Positions 47,859 through 57,464 of a stretch of 64,000 nucleotides of DNA are shown here, in pieces (the first letter of the stretch is position 1; each line of letters begins with the position of its first letter). Origin of the DNA: Nitrospira sp. GTDB taxonomy: Bacteria > Nitrospirota > Nitrospiria > Nitrospirales > Nitrospiraceae. The translations under genes and the position numbers were made by a program. The notes beneath the pieces are model-generated. The model had not been told where the DNA came from and did no database searches. It saw only the letters and a list, made by a program, of their open reading frames with translations. Location: contig CP060501.1 of assembly GCA_024760545.1 (NCBI GenBank), forward strand, positions 2,682,036-2,746,035. Reading direction: 5' to 3'.

Positions 47859-47920
47859 GGCTCGCATGGATTTGGTCTTGCGAGGTCTGTGTAAGTAGAC
47901 TAGAATTGAGTCCTCTCGCC

Positions 47921-50287
47921 ATGGCACCCAAGGCCGCAAAAAAAAAGCGTTGGGTGAGGGCCCAACCGCTTTCACACGCATACCACACCGGGGATCGGCA
48001 GGGAAACGCGGTCGAATCGGCTCGAGAAGATTTCTTTGCTGAAGCCTTCCGTCTAAGTCCTTACCCAATCGGTATCACGGAACTCGAAACCGGGCTCTGT
48101 CTGGAAATTAATGATGCCTGCCTGGAGATCTTCGGGTTTAGTCGGGACGAAGTCGTTGGGAATACCACGTTGACGTTGCAGATCTGGCCTCACCCTCGTG
48201 ATCGTGCTCGGTTCATCAATCGATTGAATTCCGAAGGATCGGTAAAAAACCTTGAAGTGTCGATGCGGACGAAGAAAGGAACGCTACGACGATTCCTCAT
48301 CTCGACGAATCTCATCACGGTAGGCGGCAAGCGTTGCCTCCTGACGATTGGGAACGACATCACGGCAGAGGACGATGTGCGTGGAGCCCATGACCAGTCG
48401 AAACGAGGTATCCGAGAGAGCATCGCGGGAGTCGAGCGAACGAATGGCGCGACGCGGGACGGTGGCGAACGGTTTCCTTTGTTCATCGAGCATGCACCGG
48501 CCGCGATTGCGATGTTTGACCGCGATATGCGCTATCTGGCGGCGAGTCGCCGTTGGATGGAAGATTATCGGCTGACCGGAGATATCGTGGGTCAATCTCA
48601 CTACGACATGTTTCCCGACGTCTCATTGCGGTGGAAAGAGGTACATCGACGAGGGTTGGCCGGAGAGGTTCTGAGCGCAGATGAAGACCAGTTCGTTCGA
48701 GATGACGGCTCCGTGCAGTGGATCACCTGGGATGTCCGCCCTTGGTATAGCGGCGACCAGATCGGCGGCATTGCGATTGCGACGGAGGATGTGACGGCTC
48801 GTGTGGAGGCAAAGATCGCGTTGCATGAGCGGGAGGAACGATCGGATCAAGTCATCCGATTGGCCAACTTCGGCATTTTCGACCATGATCACCGTAGCGG
48901 AAAAGTGTACTGGTCGCCGGCCATGAGGGAAATCTATGGCGTGGGATCGGACGCTCCGGCCTCCCTGGAGGGTTATATCCAGCTGATTCATCCGGAGGAT
49001 CGCGAAATGGTCGTCATGGCGATCAAACAAGCCCATGACCCTACGGCTGACGATCTGTTTTCAATGGAACACCGTCTTTTGCGTCCCGACGGGAGTGTCC
49101 GCTGGGTCAACTTTCGATCATGGACGCTATTCGAGAGTGACGGCCCCGTGCGTCGTCCCACCCGGACCTTGGGAGCGATGATCGACGTCACGAAGCGCAA
49201 ACAAGCCGAAGAGGCGTTGAAAATAAGCGAGCGACGATTCGCCTCCTTTATGGATAATTTGCATGGTTTTGCGTGGATCAAAGATGCTCAGGGACGATAT
49301 CTCTATGTCAATCGACTGTTTCAAGAATCCGTCCTGAGGGGTTTGGAGTGGAAAGAAAAAACTGCTTTCGAGTTGTGGCCTGCGGAGGTCGCCGAGCAGT
49401 ACGATTTGAATGATAGGAAAGTGCGGGAAAATCGGGTTCCGCTCCACACTGTCGAGTCGTTCATACAAAACGGAGAGATTCGGCACGCCCTTGTCAGCAA
49501 GTTTCCTATCATCGATCAGAAGGGAGCCCCGTCGCTGTTTGGTGGTGTCGCGGTCGACATCACCGAACGCAAGCAAGCGGAAGAGGCACTGCATCATAAC
49601 CAACTCGAGCTGCATCAACAGCAAGTCCAGCTGGAGGAGCTGACCTCGAAGTTACTGACGGCACAAGAGCATGAGCGGCAACGAATCGCCCGTGATCTGC
49701 ATGACGATGTAAGCCAGCGACTGGCGGCATTGGTCTTGGAGGTCGCGTCGTTCGAGCGCCAGTCTTCCAGCATGCCGGTCGAACTGGCTCATGCGCTGAC
49801 GCCGATTCGTGAACAGTTGGAACAACTTTCGGATGATGTGCATACCCTTGCGTACCGACTTCATCCCTCCCTCTTGGAACACGCAGGATTGCGTCCTGCA
49901 ATCGAAGACCATGTTCATCAGGTTTCCCGGCGGACCGGCTTGCCCATCCACCTCAAGATTGCCGGGGTTCCGAATGCGGTCCCGCTCGATCACGCCACCT
50001 GTCTCTTCCGTGTAATGCAGGAGAGCGTCCAAAATGTGGTGAAACATGCGCAGGCAACGGCAGTGGCGGTCCAACTCCGTGGATCGTCGAAGGGCATCGG
50101 ATTGTCTGTGACTGACAATGGGAAGGGATTTGACCCCCATGACCAGAGCACCCATCAGCAGGGCTTGGGGTTGAGTAGTATGGAGGAACGGTTGCGGCAA
50201 CTGCAGGGATTTTTTCGGATTCAGTCCGGGCCGGCCAACGGCACGAAGGTCTGTGCCTGGGTTCCTTGCGAGTTGGAGGTCATATGA
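47921..50287 (+). CDS. Four-PAS sensor histidine kinase (NarL-type partner, HisKA_3)
   Basis: 788 residues without membrane segments, so a cytoplasmic sensor. PAS domains lie at about 35-150 (GITELETGLCLEINDACLEI), 190-300 (PAAIAMFDRDMRYLAASRRW), 320-430 (FGIFDHDHRSGKVYWSPAMR) and 440-560 (GFAWIKDAQGRYLYVNRLFQ). The dimerisation helix has ERQRIARDLHDDVSQRLAAL with the phospho-His near 594; the ATPase domain ends the protein (LFRVMQESVQNVVKHAQA, SVTDNGKGFD). The ATG at 47921 is preferred to a TTG at 47906; neither has a clear SD. The signal sensed is unknown. Confidence 0.9.
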   Translation: MAPKAAKKKRWVRAQPLSHAYHTGDRQGNAVESAREDFFAEAFRLSPYPIGITELETGLCLEINDACLEIFGFSRDEVVGNTTLTLQIWPHPRDRARFINRLNSEGSVKNLEVSMRTKKGTLRRFLISTNLITVGGKRCLLTIGNDITAEDDVRGAHDQSKRGIRESIAGVERTNGATRDGGERFPLFIEHAPAAIAMFDRDMRYLAASRRWMEDYRLTGDIVGQSHYDMFPDVSLRWKEVHRRGLAGEVLSADEDQFVRDDGSVQWITWDVRPWYSGDQIGGIAIATEDVTARVEAKIALHEREERSDQVIRLANFGIFDHDHRSGKVYWSPAMREIYGVGSDAPASLEGYIQLIHPEDREMVVMAIKQAHDPTADDLFSMEHRLLRPDGSVRWVNFRSWTLFESDGPVRRPTRTLGAMIDVTKRKQAEEALKISERRFASFMDNLHGFAWIKDAQGRYLYVNRLFQESVLRGLEWKEKTAFELWPAEVAEQYDLNDRKVRENRVPLHTVESFIQNGEIRHALVSKFPIIDQKGAPSLFGGVAVDITERKQAEEALHHNQLELHQQQVQLEELTSKLLTAQEHERQRIARDLHDDVSQRLAALVLEVASFERQSSSMPVELAHALTPIREQLEQLSDDVHTLAYRLHPSLLEHAGLRPAIEDHVHQVSRRTGLPIHLKIAGVPNAVPLDHATCLFRVMQESVQNVVKHAQATAVAVQLRGSSKGIGLSVTDNGKGFDPHDQSTHQQGLGLSSMEERLRQLQGFFRIQSGPANGTKVCAWVPCELEVI

Positions 50288-50937
50288 AACGACCACGTAT
50301 CTTGATGGCGGATGACCATGCCATTGTCCTGGCTGGGCTTCGGAAGTTGGTAGAAGCCGAAGGCGAGGTCGTTGGCATGGTGGAGGACGGGCGAACATTG
50401 GTGGAGAAAGCCCAGCAGCTTCGCCCCGACATTGTGTTGCTCGATATCTCGATGCCGCTCCTCAACGGGTTGGACGCGGCGCGACAATTGACCAAACTGG
50501 TGCCGGAGAGCAAGCTCATCTTCCTGACGATGCACGCCACCCCCACGTATGCGACCGAAGCCTTTAAGGCAGGTGCTGCGGGCTATCTGATAAAACGGTC
50601 GGCAGCGGTGGAACTCAAGCAAGCGATCCAGGCCGTGATGCGGGGGCAGCACTACATGACTCCGCTGATCACGAAGGACGTGTTAGCAGCGACGCTCCAA
50701 TCTCCCGAAGGCCAGCCATGCAAGCCGGTGGTGACTTCTCTCACGCAGCGGCAACGTGAAGTGTTGCAACTCGTTGCGGAGGGAAAAGGAACCAAAGCGA
50801 TTGCCTCCATTCTGAATATCTCTGTGAAGACCGTAGAGTTCCACAAATTTCGCATCATGGGCGAACTCGATCTGCATTCGACGGCCGAGTTGATCAAATA
50901 TGCAATCGCTGAAGGTCTTGTGAGTGTGTCCTCATAG
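50284..50937 (+). CDS. NarL/FixJ-type response regulator
   Basis: 217 residues. The receiver has the acidic pair ADDH and the phospho-acceptor Asp 54 in IVLLDISMPLLNG; the LuxR-type helix-turn-helix is LTQRQREVLQLVAEGKGTKA then SVKTVEFHKFRIMGELDLHS. Its ATG overlaps the kinase stop codon (ATGA) with TTGGAGG upstream, so the two form a cognate pair. No DNA target can be named; inverted repeats follow the gene. Confidence 0.93.
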   Translation: MKRPRILMADDHAIVLAGLRKLVEAEGEVVGMVEDGRTLVEKAQQLRPDIVLLDISMPLLNGLDAARQLTKLVPESKLIFLTMHATPTYATEAFKAGAAGYLIKRSAAVELKQAIQAVMRGQHYMTPLITKDVLAATLQSPEGQPCKPVVTSLTQRQREVLQLVAEGKGTKAIASILNISVKTVEFHKFRIMGELDLHSTAELIKYAIAEGLVSVSS

Positions 50938-51263
50938 GCACACGCACAAGGTTTTGGTTTAGTTCCGGTCTCAAAATCGTTTTCGGCTGAGAACCGGGCG
51001 GCGTCCCCTAACAAACTCCGGCATTTGGTGGAAGTCTCGTGCTCCAGGATTTGGACAGAGGTTTCGGTGAATGGTTCAGAACCTCTCGCCTCTCGATCTG
51101 AGATGAGTGCTAGTAATATCCCTTTTTCTTTCCAGGGATTTTACTAGTTCACAAGCTCCGCCCTAACCCATTATCATCCAATAGTTATTCAGTATCGTGT
51201 ATTCGAGTGTCGGTGGGAATTATTACTTCTGATTCTGATCTGTTTAGTGTGTGGGAGGGGGTC
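50938..51263. other. Gap of 326 bp with two inverted repeats
   Basis: A hairpin with 9 bp and one bulge (CCGGT plus CTCA, 50965-50973, against TGAG and ACCGG, 50988-50997) lies 28 bp after the regulator and may end its transcript, though its T-run is in the loop. A longer repeat lies at 51110-51147. No gene seen. Confidence 0.5.
51110..51147. repeat. 14-bp inverted repeat with one mismatch
   Basis: CTAGTAATATCCCT (51110-51123) and AGGGATTTTACTAG (51134-51147) are complementary at 13 of 14 positions with a pyrimidine-rich 10-nt loop. It lies 117 bp before the small winged-helix-like gene. TTACTAG recurs at 51519-51526 just after that gene (CTTACTAG). Confidence 0.5.
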
Positions 51264-51518
51264 ATGCAGTTCTCGGCGATCATAGACCGTGTCCATCATG
51301 CGCTCAAGCAGTTTGGTACACATTGTTCTATGGAAGAGGTGGTCGGCCTCTGTCCGGATCTGACCTGGAATCAAGTCCACCTATCTATTGATTACTTGAG
51401 CAAGACGGGAAAGGTCCGTGTGACGCTTGACCCAGACAGGACATATACGGTCCATCCGGTTCTTGGCGAGCCGTCTCAAGTTTCATCCATAGGGCATATT
51501 CAAAGTACCGTCCAGTAA
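51264..51518 (+). CDS. Small winged-helix-like protein, function unknown
   Basis: 84 residues from the ATG at 51264, which follows GGGAGGGG; the longer frame from 51207 lacks an SD. The pattern DRVHHALKQFGTHCSMEEVV, LTWNQVHLSIDYLSKTGKVR and VTLDPDRTYTVHP looks like a helix-helix-helix-beta-hairpin fold, as in small winged-helix regulators. No family name can be given. Nearby inverted repeats could be its sites. Confidence 0.62.
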   Translation: MQFSAIIDRVHHALKQFGTHCSMEEVVGLCPDLTWNQVHLSIDYLSKTGKVRVTLDPDRTYTVHPVLGEPSQVSSIGHIQSTVQ

Positions 51519-53281: not shown

Positions 53282-53460
53282 TGAGGCAGACGTAGGTTCC
53301 CGAAGAGCAGTGGGGCCGAGTTGTTGTATGGCATCAGCCCTGTGATGTCATTCTTTTCAGCTTTGTCCAGGGAAAAGATGTCTGTCGGTCTCATTCCTTG
53401 GGAAGTGTGCTTGTGGTCTACCACTTCGTTGCGTGATGGGTCCGAACGAAAGGAGTAACC

Positions 53461-53544
53461 ATGGATAGTACCTTCTTAATATTTGCGGCCGTGATGCTCA
53501 TCATCTTCATCGGCGGCATCATCATATACAAGAAGAGCGTCTAA
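53461..53544 (+). CDS. 27-residue single-span membrane peptide, YKKSV type
   Basis: AAAGGAG lies six bases before the ATG. The peptide starts MDSTFLIFAAVMLIIF, has one hydrophobic segment with a GG pair, and ends IIYKKSV. An almost identical layout and the same YKKSV end are found in the 26-residue peptide at 56.2 kb on the opposite strand. The Lys-Lys end should sit on the cytoplasmic side. A hairpin (CTTCAC 53559-53564 / GTGAAG 53576-53581) follows. No family is known to me. Confidence 0.7.
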   Translation: MDSTFLIFAAVMLIIFIGGIIIYKKSV

Positions 53545-53809
53545 TCGGCGGTCTATTCCTTCACCTCGTTTTATTGTGAAGCGGCTCAGTCCCTCGTGAG
53601 CTTAGTCTCGCGAGTTGTCAAGGTGCTGAGCGAAACGTTACCGGTCTGTCTTCTTCTCATCTGCCCTTCCGATTCATCCCTATCACTCATATTGTTCGTG
53701 ATGTATCCTGGCTGGGATTTCAAGCGAGGAAGCCTGGCCTGAGCCGATTCATCGGCAGTACCAGGCCGATCCATGGAGACCACCGGTGAAACGAGTACCG
53801 ATCCGATAG

Positions 53810-54742
53810 TTATTCGCGGATTGCCTTGGCGCGCTTTTGAAGATAGGCATTCCGTACTGCGGCATAGAGATCCAAAGTAGATTCTTCCACACCCTCAAAC
53901 TTTTCCAGATTCAGAGAGCGCTCGTTTACGACTTCAGTCGCACGCGCGCCAATCGAGATGCCATACGTGAGCGCCCGCTCTTCTATAGAGACCACTGTCG
54001 GAATGGCATCGATGTTATGCATGGTCGGCAGGATCAGCCAGTAAATCGGATTGAGGGCAATATCTCCCGCATACCCGATAAGATCCCGAACCGTGTATGG
54101 TCCCAAAAGCGGCACCATGATATAGGGGCCGGGCTTGACTCCATAGAATCCAAGCGTCTGTCCCGTATCTTCCTCCGGTGTTGTGAGATTGAATCGCTGA
54201 GCCACATCAAAGAATCCCCCGATCCCAACCGTCGTATTAATGAGAAATCGCCCGACTTCTATTCCAGCTCCCTTGAATCTACCTTGAAAGATATTGTTCA
54301 GAAACCGCGGAGTCACACGACTATTGTAGAAGATATTGCTGACGCCGTTCTGGACAATATTCGGAACGACGAAGTTGTATCCTCTGGCGACCGGTTTCAA
54401 CACCCACCGATCCAGCTGCCGGTTGAATTCAAAGAATTTGGTATTGAGCGGCTCCCAGGGATCATATTCCTCAACGGCCTCTTCGCCCGGCTTGGCAAAG
54501 GGATCCACAGGCTCGTCCAGTGATTGGTCGCGAGCAGCTAGTGCAAGGGGAAGCATGGAGGAAGCCGAGGAGGCATCCGCGAGCAGAACCGACGGCGTGC
54601 TTCGCTCGACATAGGGAGCGTCGGAGCGCATCGAGCCTTCATGTACCGCACAACCTGAAAGCAATATCACTACAGCGGCAAGTAGCAACCTGCATGGTCT
54701 TTCAATCCACCGAACCGGCCCACCACCAGTCTGTATCCTCAT
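53810..54742 (-). CDS. mlaA: Outer-membrane lipoprotein MlaA (VacJ)
   Basis: 310 residues from the ATG at 54742; the leader ends VILLSGC (lipobox). MlaA signatures: DPWEPLNTKFFEFNRQLDRW, NFVVPNIVQNGVSNIFYNSR, EVGRFLINTTVGIGGFFDVA and EDTGQTLGFYGVKPGPYIMV. It removes mislocalised phospholipids from the outer leaflet and passes them to MlaC, encoded 6.7 kb away. An ATG 26 codons upstream would put polar residues before the signal peptide and is unlikely. Confidence 0.92.
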   Translation of the reverse strand: MRIQTGGGPVRWIERPCRLLLAAVVILLSGCAVHEGSMRSDAPYVERSTPSVLLADASSASSMLPLALAARDQSLDEPVDPFAKPGEEAVEEYDPWEPLNTKFFEFNRQLDRWVLKPVARGYNFVVPNIVQNGVSNIFYNSRVTPRFLNNIFQGRFKGAGIEVGRFLINTTVGIGGFFDVAQRFNLTTPEEDTGQTLGFYGVKPGPYIMVPLLGPYTVRDLIGYAGDIALNPIYWLILPTMHNIDAIPTVVSIEERALTYGISIGARATEVVNERSLNLEKFEGVEESTLDLYAAVRNAYLQKRAKAIRE

Positions 54743-55122
54743 CCTTTGCGTGCCTTCCTCGTATGAAATGCAAGCCTTCATCGGCAATGCGGTGCCGCAC
54801 TGTACCAAAAGTCGGCTCACCGGCCAATAATTATTTCTGAATCTTCTTGCAGAGAAACGATACCGCCCTCAGCCGCTTTCCCTTACAGGTATGGCATTAC
54901 CATTGCTTCCCCGGTTCTCCGGCATCGACTGTAATGAGTTCTTGCGACAGACGTCGGCTCATGGCTTGACAGAACGGAAGGATTGGTGTGAGCATCATGT
55001 GTTTCCTTCCACTCGACATCTTGAACAGTCTGCAGAATGTGTCGATTGAGGTCTTATGCAACCCTGAAAAGTGATCGTGCAGATGAACGCATGAGGGGAT
55101 TTCTAACGTGGGGAGGGATGAG
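54743..55122. other. Divergent gap of 380 bp between mlaA and usp
   Basis: It should carry promoters for both genes. A TTGACA at 54966-54971 has no good -10 at the right distance. No gene or strong repeat seen. Confidence 0.45.
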
Positions 55123-55974
55123 ATGGCGATGAAAGCAATAATAGGGGTAGATGGTTCCCGGTACTCGGAGTGGCTCTTAGGATGGCTGAGTAAGATGCCG
55201 TTTCGTTCTTCGCCACGTGTCACGGCAGTTCATGCGATCGATATCGACTCGGCTCGTGCTCCATTCGTCACGCACCCGTCCGTCAGTGGGCACGAACCCG
55301 ATGAAGGGGAGGCCATTCACCTCGTGGAGACTCGAGCCAAGCAGGTGGAAATGGAAACGAAGCAGCGTATGGCGGAGCTGGGGTTGGAAGGGTCGGTGCG
55401 CGTGGAGAAGGGACAAATTGCGCATGCCCTCCTCAGACGTGCGGGTCGTACCGCACTGATAGCGGTAGGGAGCCGGGGCCTGGACGCAGTCGACCGTTTC
55501 GTATTGGGGAGCGTGTCGACAGCGATTACGGTTCACGCGCGTTCTCCGGTTTTGATTGTGAAGGAGCCACCACAAACCATTCGGCGGATTCTATTCGCAA
55601 CAGATGGCTCTCCCTCATCTACGAAGGCCCTTCAGTTCCTCACCAAGCAATTCAAGGTCAAGTCCGAAGCCGAACCACTTCATATTCTGCTGGTGCACGT
55701 CATGCCGTTTCTGCGCTACACAGTGGTGAAGGAAGCAGGGGAAAAATTGCTCGCCCAAGAGGCGGCCAAGCTTGAGAAGGCCGGGTATCGCGTCAGGGAA
55801 TTCCCACGCGTGGGACCGGCCGCGGAAGAGATCATGAAAGTGGTGAATCGAGAACAACCGGACCTGATCGTCACTGGAGCGAAGGGGAGAAGCGCTATGG
55901 CGCGCTTTCTCTTAGGGAGCGTCTCGACAAAGCTGATACACCAGAGCGCATGCTCCGTACTCGTGGTCAGATAA
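55123..55974 (+). CDS. Tandem universal stress protein
   Basis: 283 residues with two Usp domains: VGSRGLDAVDRFVLGSVSTA in the first, VTGAKGRSAMARFLLGSVST in the second. In the first loop Gly is spaced as in ATP-binding members. GGAGG (55112-55116) supports ATG 55123; a GTG at 55108 is also in frame. It is a diverged relative of the Usp at 27.2 kb. It is convergent with the 26-residue peptide gene and separated from it by a terminator-like hairpin. Confidence 0.9.
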   Translation: MAMKAIIGVDGSRYSEWLLGWLSKMPFRSSPRVTAVHAIDIDSARAPFVTHPSVSGHEPDEGEAIHLVETRAKQVEMETKQRMAELGLEGSVRVEKGQIAHALLRRAGRTALIAVGSRGLDAVDRFVLGSVSTAITVHARSPVLIVKEPPQTIRRILFATDGSPSSTKALQFLTKQFKVKSEAEPLHILLVHVMPFLRYTVVKEAGEKLLAQEAAKLEKAGYRVREFPRVGPAAEEIMKVVNREQPDLIVTGAKGRSAMARFLLGSVSTKLIHQSACSVLVVR

Positions 55975-56019
55975 GCCCATCACCTCGAGAATCCAGCGCA
56001 CCTTTCAGAAATCCATCCA

Positions 56020-56047
56020 TCGCTCGCCCCGTATGAGGGGCGAGCGA
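56020..56047. terminator. Terminator-like hairpin between convergent genes
   Basis: TCGCTCGCCCC (56020-56030) and GGGGCGAGCGA (56037-56047) form a perfect 11-bp GC-rich stem with a 6-nt loop, 45 bp after the usp stop. No T-run on either strand, so it may block readthrough or protect 3' ends rather than terminate alone. Confidence 0.5.
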
Positions 56048-56197
56048 GACATCAGTTGGAGAGGGCTTGGCGAACCGGGAACATCACCGCTCTTCGAAAG
56101 AGTCCCTTCTCCATGAAAAACATGCGTCTTCACCGAGCTCATCCACCAGGGAAAGGAACTTTTCTCGAAGCGGAACGTCCAATTCCTCGACGATACG

Positions 56198-56278
56198 CTA
56201 CACGCTCTTTTTATAAACGATGAGCCCACCGAGGAGGAGTGCACCCATCACAAGCGCGAACAACCACATCATATCCAT
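56198..56278 (-). CDS. 26-residue single-span membrane peptide, YKKSV type
   Basis: The ATG at 56278 follows AAAGGAG with a five-base gap. The peptide starts MDMMWLFALVMGALLL, has a GG pair and ends IVYKKSV, matching the 27-residue peptide at 53.5 kb in length, GG position and last five residues, though codons differ (TAT AAA AAG AGC GTG here). It lies on the far side of the mlaA-usp block. No family is known to me. Confidence 0.7.
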   Translation of the reverse strand: MDMMWLFALVMGALLLGGLIVYKKSV

Positions 56279-56519
56279 AACGGCTCCTTTCATTTAAGAC
56301 CAACGTGAACGCTTGTCCTATGAATGGAGCAACTCTTGTGCTTGAATCGCGCGAAGCGGACCGTCCCTAAACTCCGCAAAAAGAAGCCTATCCGGCCTCG
56401 TGTGTGCGGAACGCATCCAGGGGGTTGGGGGAAATGTCCTCAAGACTGTCCATTCAATTGGACAGAAGCAGGGAAGAAGCTATCGAATACGCATATGGTC
56501 CCGGTCAAAAGGCCCACGG

Positions 56520-57464
56520 CTATCGCAGACGGTCACGCCCATGCGGCGTGGAAAGATCTTGGTCGGGTCCGATTGGGACAATGCGGGTAGGATTGATGTC
56601 GTCGTGCGTGATGTAGTAGTGCCGCTTAATATGATCGAAATTGACAGTTTCAGCGATGCCGTCAGTTTGGTAGAGGTCCTTGAGATACCCAAAGAGGTTC
56701 GGGTAGTCGATGATACGCCGGACGTTGCACTTGAAATGTCCATGATACACCGCGTCGAACCGAACCAATGTGACGAAGAGCCGCCAGTCGGTTTCAACCA
56801 ACTCCGGTCCGAAGAGATAACGGCGGGATGCAAGACGCGCATCGAGTTGATCCAAGGCGGCGAACAATCGCCCTGCCGCTCGTTCATAGGCGCCCTGAGA
56901 TGTGGCGAATCCCGCTCGGTAGACCCCGTCGTTCACGTTCTCGTAGATAAAAGTGTTGAGCTCATCGATCTCCTGTCGCCATCCGTCCGGGTATAAATCG
57001 ATCGGACTTTCAGTGAATCGATTGAATTCACCGTTGAAGATTCTCATCAGGTCATCGTCGGAATTGGTGACGATGCGTTTGGTCACGCGATCCCACAGGA
57101 CCGGAACCGTCATACGACCGATATAGGCCGGATCGGTCTTTTTATAGGCTTCGCGCAAGAACTGAAACCCATTGATGGGGTCGAGGGAATGTCCCGCACC
57201 TTCGCGAAATGCCCATCCTCGCTCGTCGCGAATGGGGTCCACGACCGTCATACCGATCACCGTCTCGAGCTTCTTCAGCTTGCGCACGATGATCGTGCGA
57301 TGTGCCCACGGGCAAGCCCATGAGACGTAGAGATGATAGCGGCCGGCTTCGGCAGGATAGCCCGAGCTCCCGTTGGCGGTCACCCATTCCCGGAACGCAT
57401 CCGGCTGTCGGGTAAACTCGCCGGCCGGCGATTGTTCGTCGGGAAATTGCGCCTGGATCCCCAT
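56520..57464 (-). CDS. Glutathionyl-hydroquinone reductase (YqjG/ECM4 family)
   Basis: 314 residues. The N-terminal thioredoxin-like domain has the catalytic Cys in YVSWACPWAHRTIIVRKLKK, and VPVLWDRVTKRIVTNSDDDL; the C-terminal helical domain has RLFVTLVRFDAVYHGHFKCN. The family removes glutathione from glutathionyl-hydroquinones. Whether glutathione exists in this organism is not shown. It is divergent from the RND operon across a region with a 10-bp inverted repeat. Confidence 0.9.
   Translation of the reverse strand: MGIQAQFPDEQSPAGEFTRQPDAFREWVTANGSSGYPAEAGRYHLYVSWACPWAHRTIIVRKLKKLETVIGMTVVDPIRDERGWAFREGAGHSLDPINGFQFLREAYKKTDPAYIGRMTVPVLWDRVTKRIVTNSDDDLMRIFNGEFNRFTESPIDLYPDGWRQEIDELNTFIYENVNDGVYRAGFATSQGAYERAAGRLFAALDQLDARLASRRYLFGPELVETDWRLFVTLVRFDAVYHGHFKCNVRRIIDYPNLFGYLKDLYQTDGIAETVNFDHIKRHYYITHDDINPTRIVPIGPDQDLSTPHGRDRLR

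Follow-up and report, generated by a model that had tools for sequence, protein, structure and literature searches.

KdpF, CydX/AppX and CydH are accessory membrane subunits of 25-40 residues that consist of a single helix and are easily overlooked in annotation. The two peptide genes studied here, A and B, resemble them in these respects. They lie in a window of 64,000 nucleotides of Nitrospira DNA, the whole stretch that was analysed, see Table 1. However, their family differs in that it lacks a sequence match to these subunits, has many paralogues per genome and has no adjacent complex. No homology to a known KdpF/CydX-type subunit family was found above the cut-off in Pfam or NCBIfam, and A and B are flanked by mlaA, usp and a GST-type gene instead of lying in the operon of such a complex.

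AcrZ, MgtS, SgrT and Prli42 are small regulatory membrane proteins. They are similar to A and B in having, apparently, a promoter of their own and in probably docking onto a larger protein of the membrane. They differ in that no homology to them was detected and in that the A/B family is limited to one lineage. A third group, the type I toxins TisB, Ldr, Fst/TxpA and TimP, shares the length, the hydrophobic helix, the basic end and the paralogues, but the A/B family shows no leader occlusion, its synteny is fixed and one helix face is conserved. A leader that hides the ribosome site is frequent, not universal, in type I toxins. Finally, photosystem mini-subunits such as PsbM, and also CcoQ/FixQ, share an acidic second residue and one helix. 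The family's sole match in the PDB is to PsbM and is insignificant (E=0.65), and no CcoQ match to A or B was found in Pfam or NCBIfam.

Two peptide genes and their family

A first-pass annotation had reported two short open reading frames, each behind an AAAGGAG motif. Both are confirmed in position, strand and length, with the AAAGGAG located 5 nt upstream of the ATG in A as well as in B. With fewer than ~50 codons, a conserved frame and one hydrophobic helix, they qualify as predicted small single-pass membrane proteins. The default minimum of Prodigal is 90 nt, and A and B, at 81-84 nt, are too short for gene callers. They had been expected to lack annotation, and indeed 0 Pfam or NCBIfam families match them above cut-off. 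We found no paper describing the family in the open-licence literature, which is weak evidence.

Table 1. Positions of the two peptide genes and of the features around them in the window.
Feature	Position	Strand	Evidence
Conserved upstream region of A, ~150 bp, blocks such as GTGG-N4-CCAC and CACTTCGTTGCGTGACGGGTCCGAACGAAAGGAG	53290..53460	+	Orthologue alignment
Shine-Dalgarno of A, AAAGGAG	53449..53455	+	Kept in A orthologues
Peptide gene A, 27 aa, MDSTFLIFAAVMLIIFIGGIIIYKKSV	53461..53544	+	ORF translation; family match; dN/dS 0.21 over 20 sequences
mlaA (PF04333), convergent neighbour of A	53810..54820	-	Pfam; beside A in 37 loci (some genomes counted twice)
Tandem Usp-domain protein (PF00582), dispensable, located between A and B	55108..55974	+	Pfam
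Peptide gene B, 26 aa, MDMMWLFALVMGALLLGGLIVYKKSV	56198..56278	-	ORF translation; family match; dN/dS 0.145 over 31 sequences
Shine-Dalgarno of B, AAAGGAG	56284..56290	-	Sequence; orthologue alignment
Upstream element of B, AGCACAAGAGTTGCTC, sigma-54 -24/-12 spacing	56327..56342	-	Alignment; only family-pattern match in the window's genome
Terminator-like stem and T run between GST-type gene and B	56383..56399	-	Scan; terminators no commoner than in shuffles
Second conserved block, TTGAGGACATTT-CCCC type, candidate activator site	56426..56442	-	Alignment
GST-fold protein (PF13409/PF13410), CPWAH motif	56520..57464	-	Pfam; upstream neighbour of B, same strand

The suggested relationship between A and B is clear. 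The B peptide alone, used as query, retrieves A and a third copy from the same genome, and it matches 20 genomes among 39 relatives, all 20 from the same genus. With a wider profile (A4), four more subfamilies (C, D, E and F) come to light, and the window's genome is seen to have nine members: one copy each of A, B and C, five F-type copies and one of a related MDANLLTL type. Seven of these are intact and two have a stop at codon 5. At the level of sequence, A and B thus belong to a previously unannotated multi-copy family of predicted one-helix membrane proteins. Members have 25-32 residues and the consensus MDxxxLxFAxVMxAIxIGGxVVYKKS. The YKKSV end that was thought to be shared by A and B stands in part: YKKS is found family-wide, but the last residue varies between V, A, Q and E.

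Selection on the protein, proposed earlier from the differing codons, is borne out by a dN/dS of 0.14-0.21 in four subfamilies, with changes mostly at third codon positions. In addition to A and B (Table 1), the values are 0.144 for E (11 sequences) and 0.21 for F, from only 4 sequences, while set C, a mixture of types, gives 0.49. The ORFs of A, B, E and F have identities of 0.71-0.89, versus 0.25-0.48 for the flanks, which were compared unaligned. AAAGGAG or AAGGAG is present 5-8 nt upstream of the start in 117 of 137 distinct copies. The sequences behind the ribosome-site and dN/dS figures were collected with the same profile; neither the sequence upstream nor the pattern at third codon positions entered into that search. 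A search of the relatives for loss of the frame or of the peptide end showed instead that the frame and the YKKS end are conserved across the genus.

The F copies carry some features of their own. In two of them, L184 and L187 (G000:C1:1076957-1077031 and 1085609-1085680), TGA replaces the tryptophan codon 5. They are 8.6 kb apart, within a common duplicated stretch of ~200 bp, and are probably decayed copies or pseudogenes. Several F copies (L186, L189, L190, L193 and others) have CTTCA-type repeats upstream, spaced 11 bp in L186 as in a PhoB-like layout, and a terminator-like inverted repeat, CCTATGG...CCATAGG, downstream.

Gene order

In 49 loci the GST-type gene precedes B on the same strand, and in 37 loci A and mlaA are convergent; both counts draw on two collections, so that some genomes are counted twice. 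A and B face each other because each tracks its own neighbour, A following mlaA and B the GST-type gene. The description of the pair as flanking mlaA and usp is right as to the pair, which persists, but too narrow, as several genomes have no usp between A and B (usp is absent in L058, L065, L099 and others). The pairs can also be separated: mlaA is kept without A in L075, L108 and L118, and B is kept without A or mlaA in G012 and G018. In CG24B (L112, G379:C15 about 1722300-1723450), B is duplicated in tandem with a remnant of the GST-type gene; an AmoC fragment lies on the opposite strand within 300 bp after this duplication.

A role in outer-membrane lipids or stress, at which the first-pass annotation had hinted, finds no support, since usp is dispensable, the other subfamilies are located elsewhere and mlaA is merely a convergent neighbour. 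The CPWAH motif of the GST-type protein is typical of glutathionyl-hydroquinone reductases. Upstream of A, a PAS sensor kinase and a LuxR-type response regulator (window 47906-50937) are recurrent neighbours, together with a 103-residue protein without a Pfam match at 51207-51518.

Upstream regions

Alignments of orthologues show that the region upstream of A differs from that of B. The former is probably a promoter or leader. Upstream of B, GCAY-N5-TTGC is present in 32 of 32 core B copies and in 20 B-like copies, with the consensus YR(A/C)GCAYRAGAGTTGCTS. Its distance to the ATG varies from ~48 to 216 nt, which fits a promoter and not a translation signal. Compared with sigma-54 promoters, in which GG at -25/-24 and GC at -13/-12 are 10 nt apart, the spacing is exact and the -24 G, the GC and the TTGC are invariant. 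However, A or C takes the place of the G at position -25, and for this reason the use of sigma-54 is put forward as a proposal only. RpoN is encoded in the genome. The TTGAGGACATTT-CCCC block lies downstream of the stop codon of the GST-type gene, ~90 bp upstream of the sigma-54-like element. Alternatively, the element could be a palindromic operator, AGCA-N7-TGCT. The terminator-like stem before B weakly suggests that B is its own transcription unit.

The pattern upstream of B occurs once per genome in five peptide-bearing genomes, with one extra site in G178, and the reversed control gave one occurrence over all eight genomes searched. With about one site per genome, no regulon can be read from it. 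Beside the same GST-type gene in relatives without the peptide, the element is absent. A scan for sigma-70 promoters found no excess over shuffles. The B-type pattern also occurs once in the peptide-less genome G022 (L207, C1:2215881-2215896), as GGCATGAGAGTTGCTG. There it is a better sigma-54 match and precedes a gene with a twin-arginine-like signal, and a sigma-54 activator gene is nearby.

The leader in the window folds better than shuffles (z -2.47). Mononucleotide shuffles hinted that it hides the ribosome site of A; leader-only shuffles that kept dinucleotides gave no support. The mean accessibility of the ribosome sites of A, B and C falls at the 0.41-0.47 quantile of shuffled leaders.

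A conserved helix face and its possible function

Conservation along the peptides is periodic at 100 degrees (moment 6.58, permutation p=0.0002, ~107 distinct peptides), although the permutation shuffles positions and takes no account of descent among the peptides. The conserved stripe consists of F8, V11, M12, L/I15, G18, G19, V22 and Y23, followed by KK (peptide A numbering). Such one-face conservation is expected for a helix that packs one face on a protein.

We suggest that A and B are translated and belong to a lineage-specific family of single-helix membrane proteins that may serve as small docking or regulatory subunits, a reading which we consider evenly balanced between right and wrong. 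Frame, start, ribosome site, selection, paralogues, gene order, lineage restriction and the single helix face can be read from the sequences; the orientation, a partner and the effect are inferred. By the positive-inside rule and from the acidic start and the KK end, the peptides would cross the inner membrane with their N-terminus facing outwards and their KK end in the cytoplasm. The stripe from F8 to Y23 could then pack on a transmembrane helix of a partner or on another copy, while the variable face would meet lipid. In this way the peptides might act like KdpF, CydX or AcrZ. The paralogues would present the same interface from different promoters and so exert the same action under different conditions, B from its sigma-54-like promoter and A from its own conserved upstream region. 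It can be speculated further, with little confidence, that they are interchangeable mini-helices of one comammox lineage, setting the same face on one membrane target from different promoters and tuning a lineage-specific step.

Three observations count against docking. The neighbours, a soluble GST-type enzyme, an outer-membrane lipoprotein and Usp, point to no single membrane complex. Up to nine copies per genome are unusual for a stoichiometric subunit. The scattered F subfamily with its decayed copies fits a spreading or toxin-like element better.

That the peptides are toxins of type I toxin-antitoxin systems, i.e. small, hydrophobic peptides of the membrane, basic at one end and silenced by antisense RNA, is less likely than docking and, in our judgement, improbable. 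Their size, hydrophobicity and basic C-terminus are as expected for such toxins, and so are several paralogues per genome and scattered F copies of which some are disrupted. However, the ribosome sites are strong and, in A, B and C, hidden no more than in shuffled leaders, the positions of A and B are fixed across the clade under purifying selection, and conservation runs along one helix face. There is also no Rfam match near the A/B pair, a weak negative that covers known RNA families only. Leader accessibility and Rfam probe this explanation indirectly.

The peptides could also be stress-induced and act on the fluidity or permeability of the bilayer, with no specific protein partner. The differing upstream regions of A, B and F and the neighbours linked to envelope and redox stress are consistent with this, but a near-invariant stripe with F, GG and Y is unexpected for a purely lipid-facing peptide, and we find the explanation doubtful.

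Distribution and ammonia monooxygenase

Strong copies of the family were found by profile in 61 of the 77 genomes of the genus and are absent from 16. Most genomes are MAGs, which makes the absences soft. When a profile of 25 members was run against 295 genomes from the phylum, matches with E below 1e-5 were confined to the window's genus. Those outside the genus have E above 0.008 and resemble chance hits, most of them falling within long ORFs. Among 84,980 species scanned, there were 56 loci, all but one on contigs titled Nitrospira, Nitrospiraceae or Nitrospirae. The exception, L123 (CAADGK010000024.1), is titled 'uncultured Nitrosospira', has the same order of GST-type gene, B and Usp, and comes from a MAG that is probably mislabelled.

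With its two amoA and six amoC matches, the window's genome is that of a comammox Nitrospira, a bacterium that can oxidise ammonia completely to nitrate. AmoA or AmoC is found in 59 of the 61 family-positive genomes of the genus versus 1 of the 16 negative ones (Fisher p=6e-13, a value which overstates a functional link since genomes of one lineage are not independent). At >=90% completeness and <=5% contamination, AMO is present in 39 of 40 positive versus 0 of 8 negative genomes. The one AMO-positive, family-negative genome, G378, is 87% complete and lacks the GST-type gene, so the absence is probably a gap. In G371, from the same species as the window's genome, no amoA was seen, which indicates that assemblies can miss AMO genes.

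The AMO-negative relatives have the GST-type gene in 11 of 11 cases, 81-87% identical, and beside it none of these 11 has B, the element, mlaA or usp. The tree of the GST-type protein allows a split that places the peptide-bearing genomes together on the same side, the branch being weakly supported (57/14). In a second genus, g12, of the family-level sample, none of 12 AMO-positive genomes has a match to the peptide family at E 0.05. Comammox clades A and B are separate GTDB genera, both with non-comammox members too (PMC12342949). Probably g12 is clade B and the family would then mark the clade A side. As g12 carries AMO without the family, the family marks one comammox lineage and not ammonia oxidation itself, and its association with AMO first of all reflects ancestry.

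That the peptides belong to the ammonia-oxidising machinery as a small subunit (of AMO, of hydroxylamine oxidation or of its quinone link) is therefore very unlikely in spite of this association. Common ancestry can produce the correlation, the A/B pair lies outside any amo cluster, two genomes without AMO, perhaps incomplete ones, have the family, and g12 shows that it is not required for AMO, which rules out AMO function as the main reading. Weakest is the idea that A and B are fortuitous ORFs or a repeat copied at the DNA level: any six-frame listing is rich in very short ORFs, but the genus-wide conservation of frame, start, ribosome site and residues with a third-position bias, the paralogues found by the B query and the strong copies in 61 of 77 genomes make it practically negligible.

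Implications for comammox Nitrospira

The number of genes that separate comammox from other Nitrospira has been described as a "low number" (PMC6311188). The family is a possible metagenome marker that sets one comammox lineage apart from its nitrite-oxidising relatives. As a conserved, multi-copy family of mini-membrane proteins, it is a direct target for culture studies of comammox bacteria.
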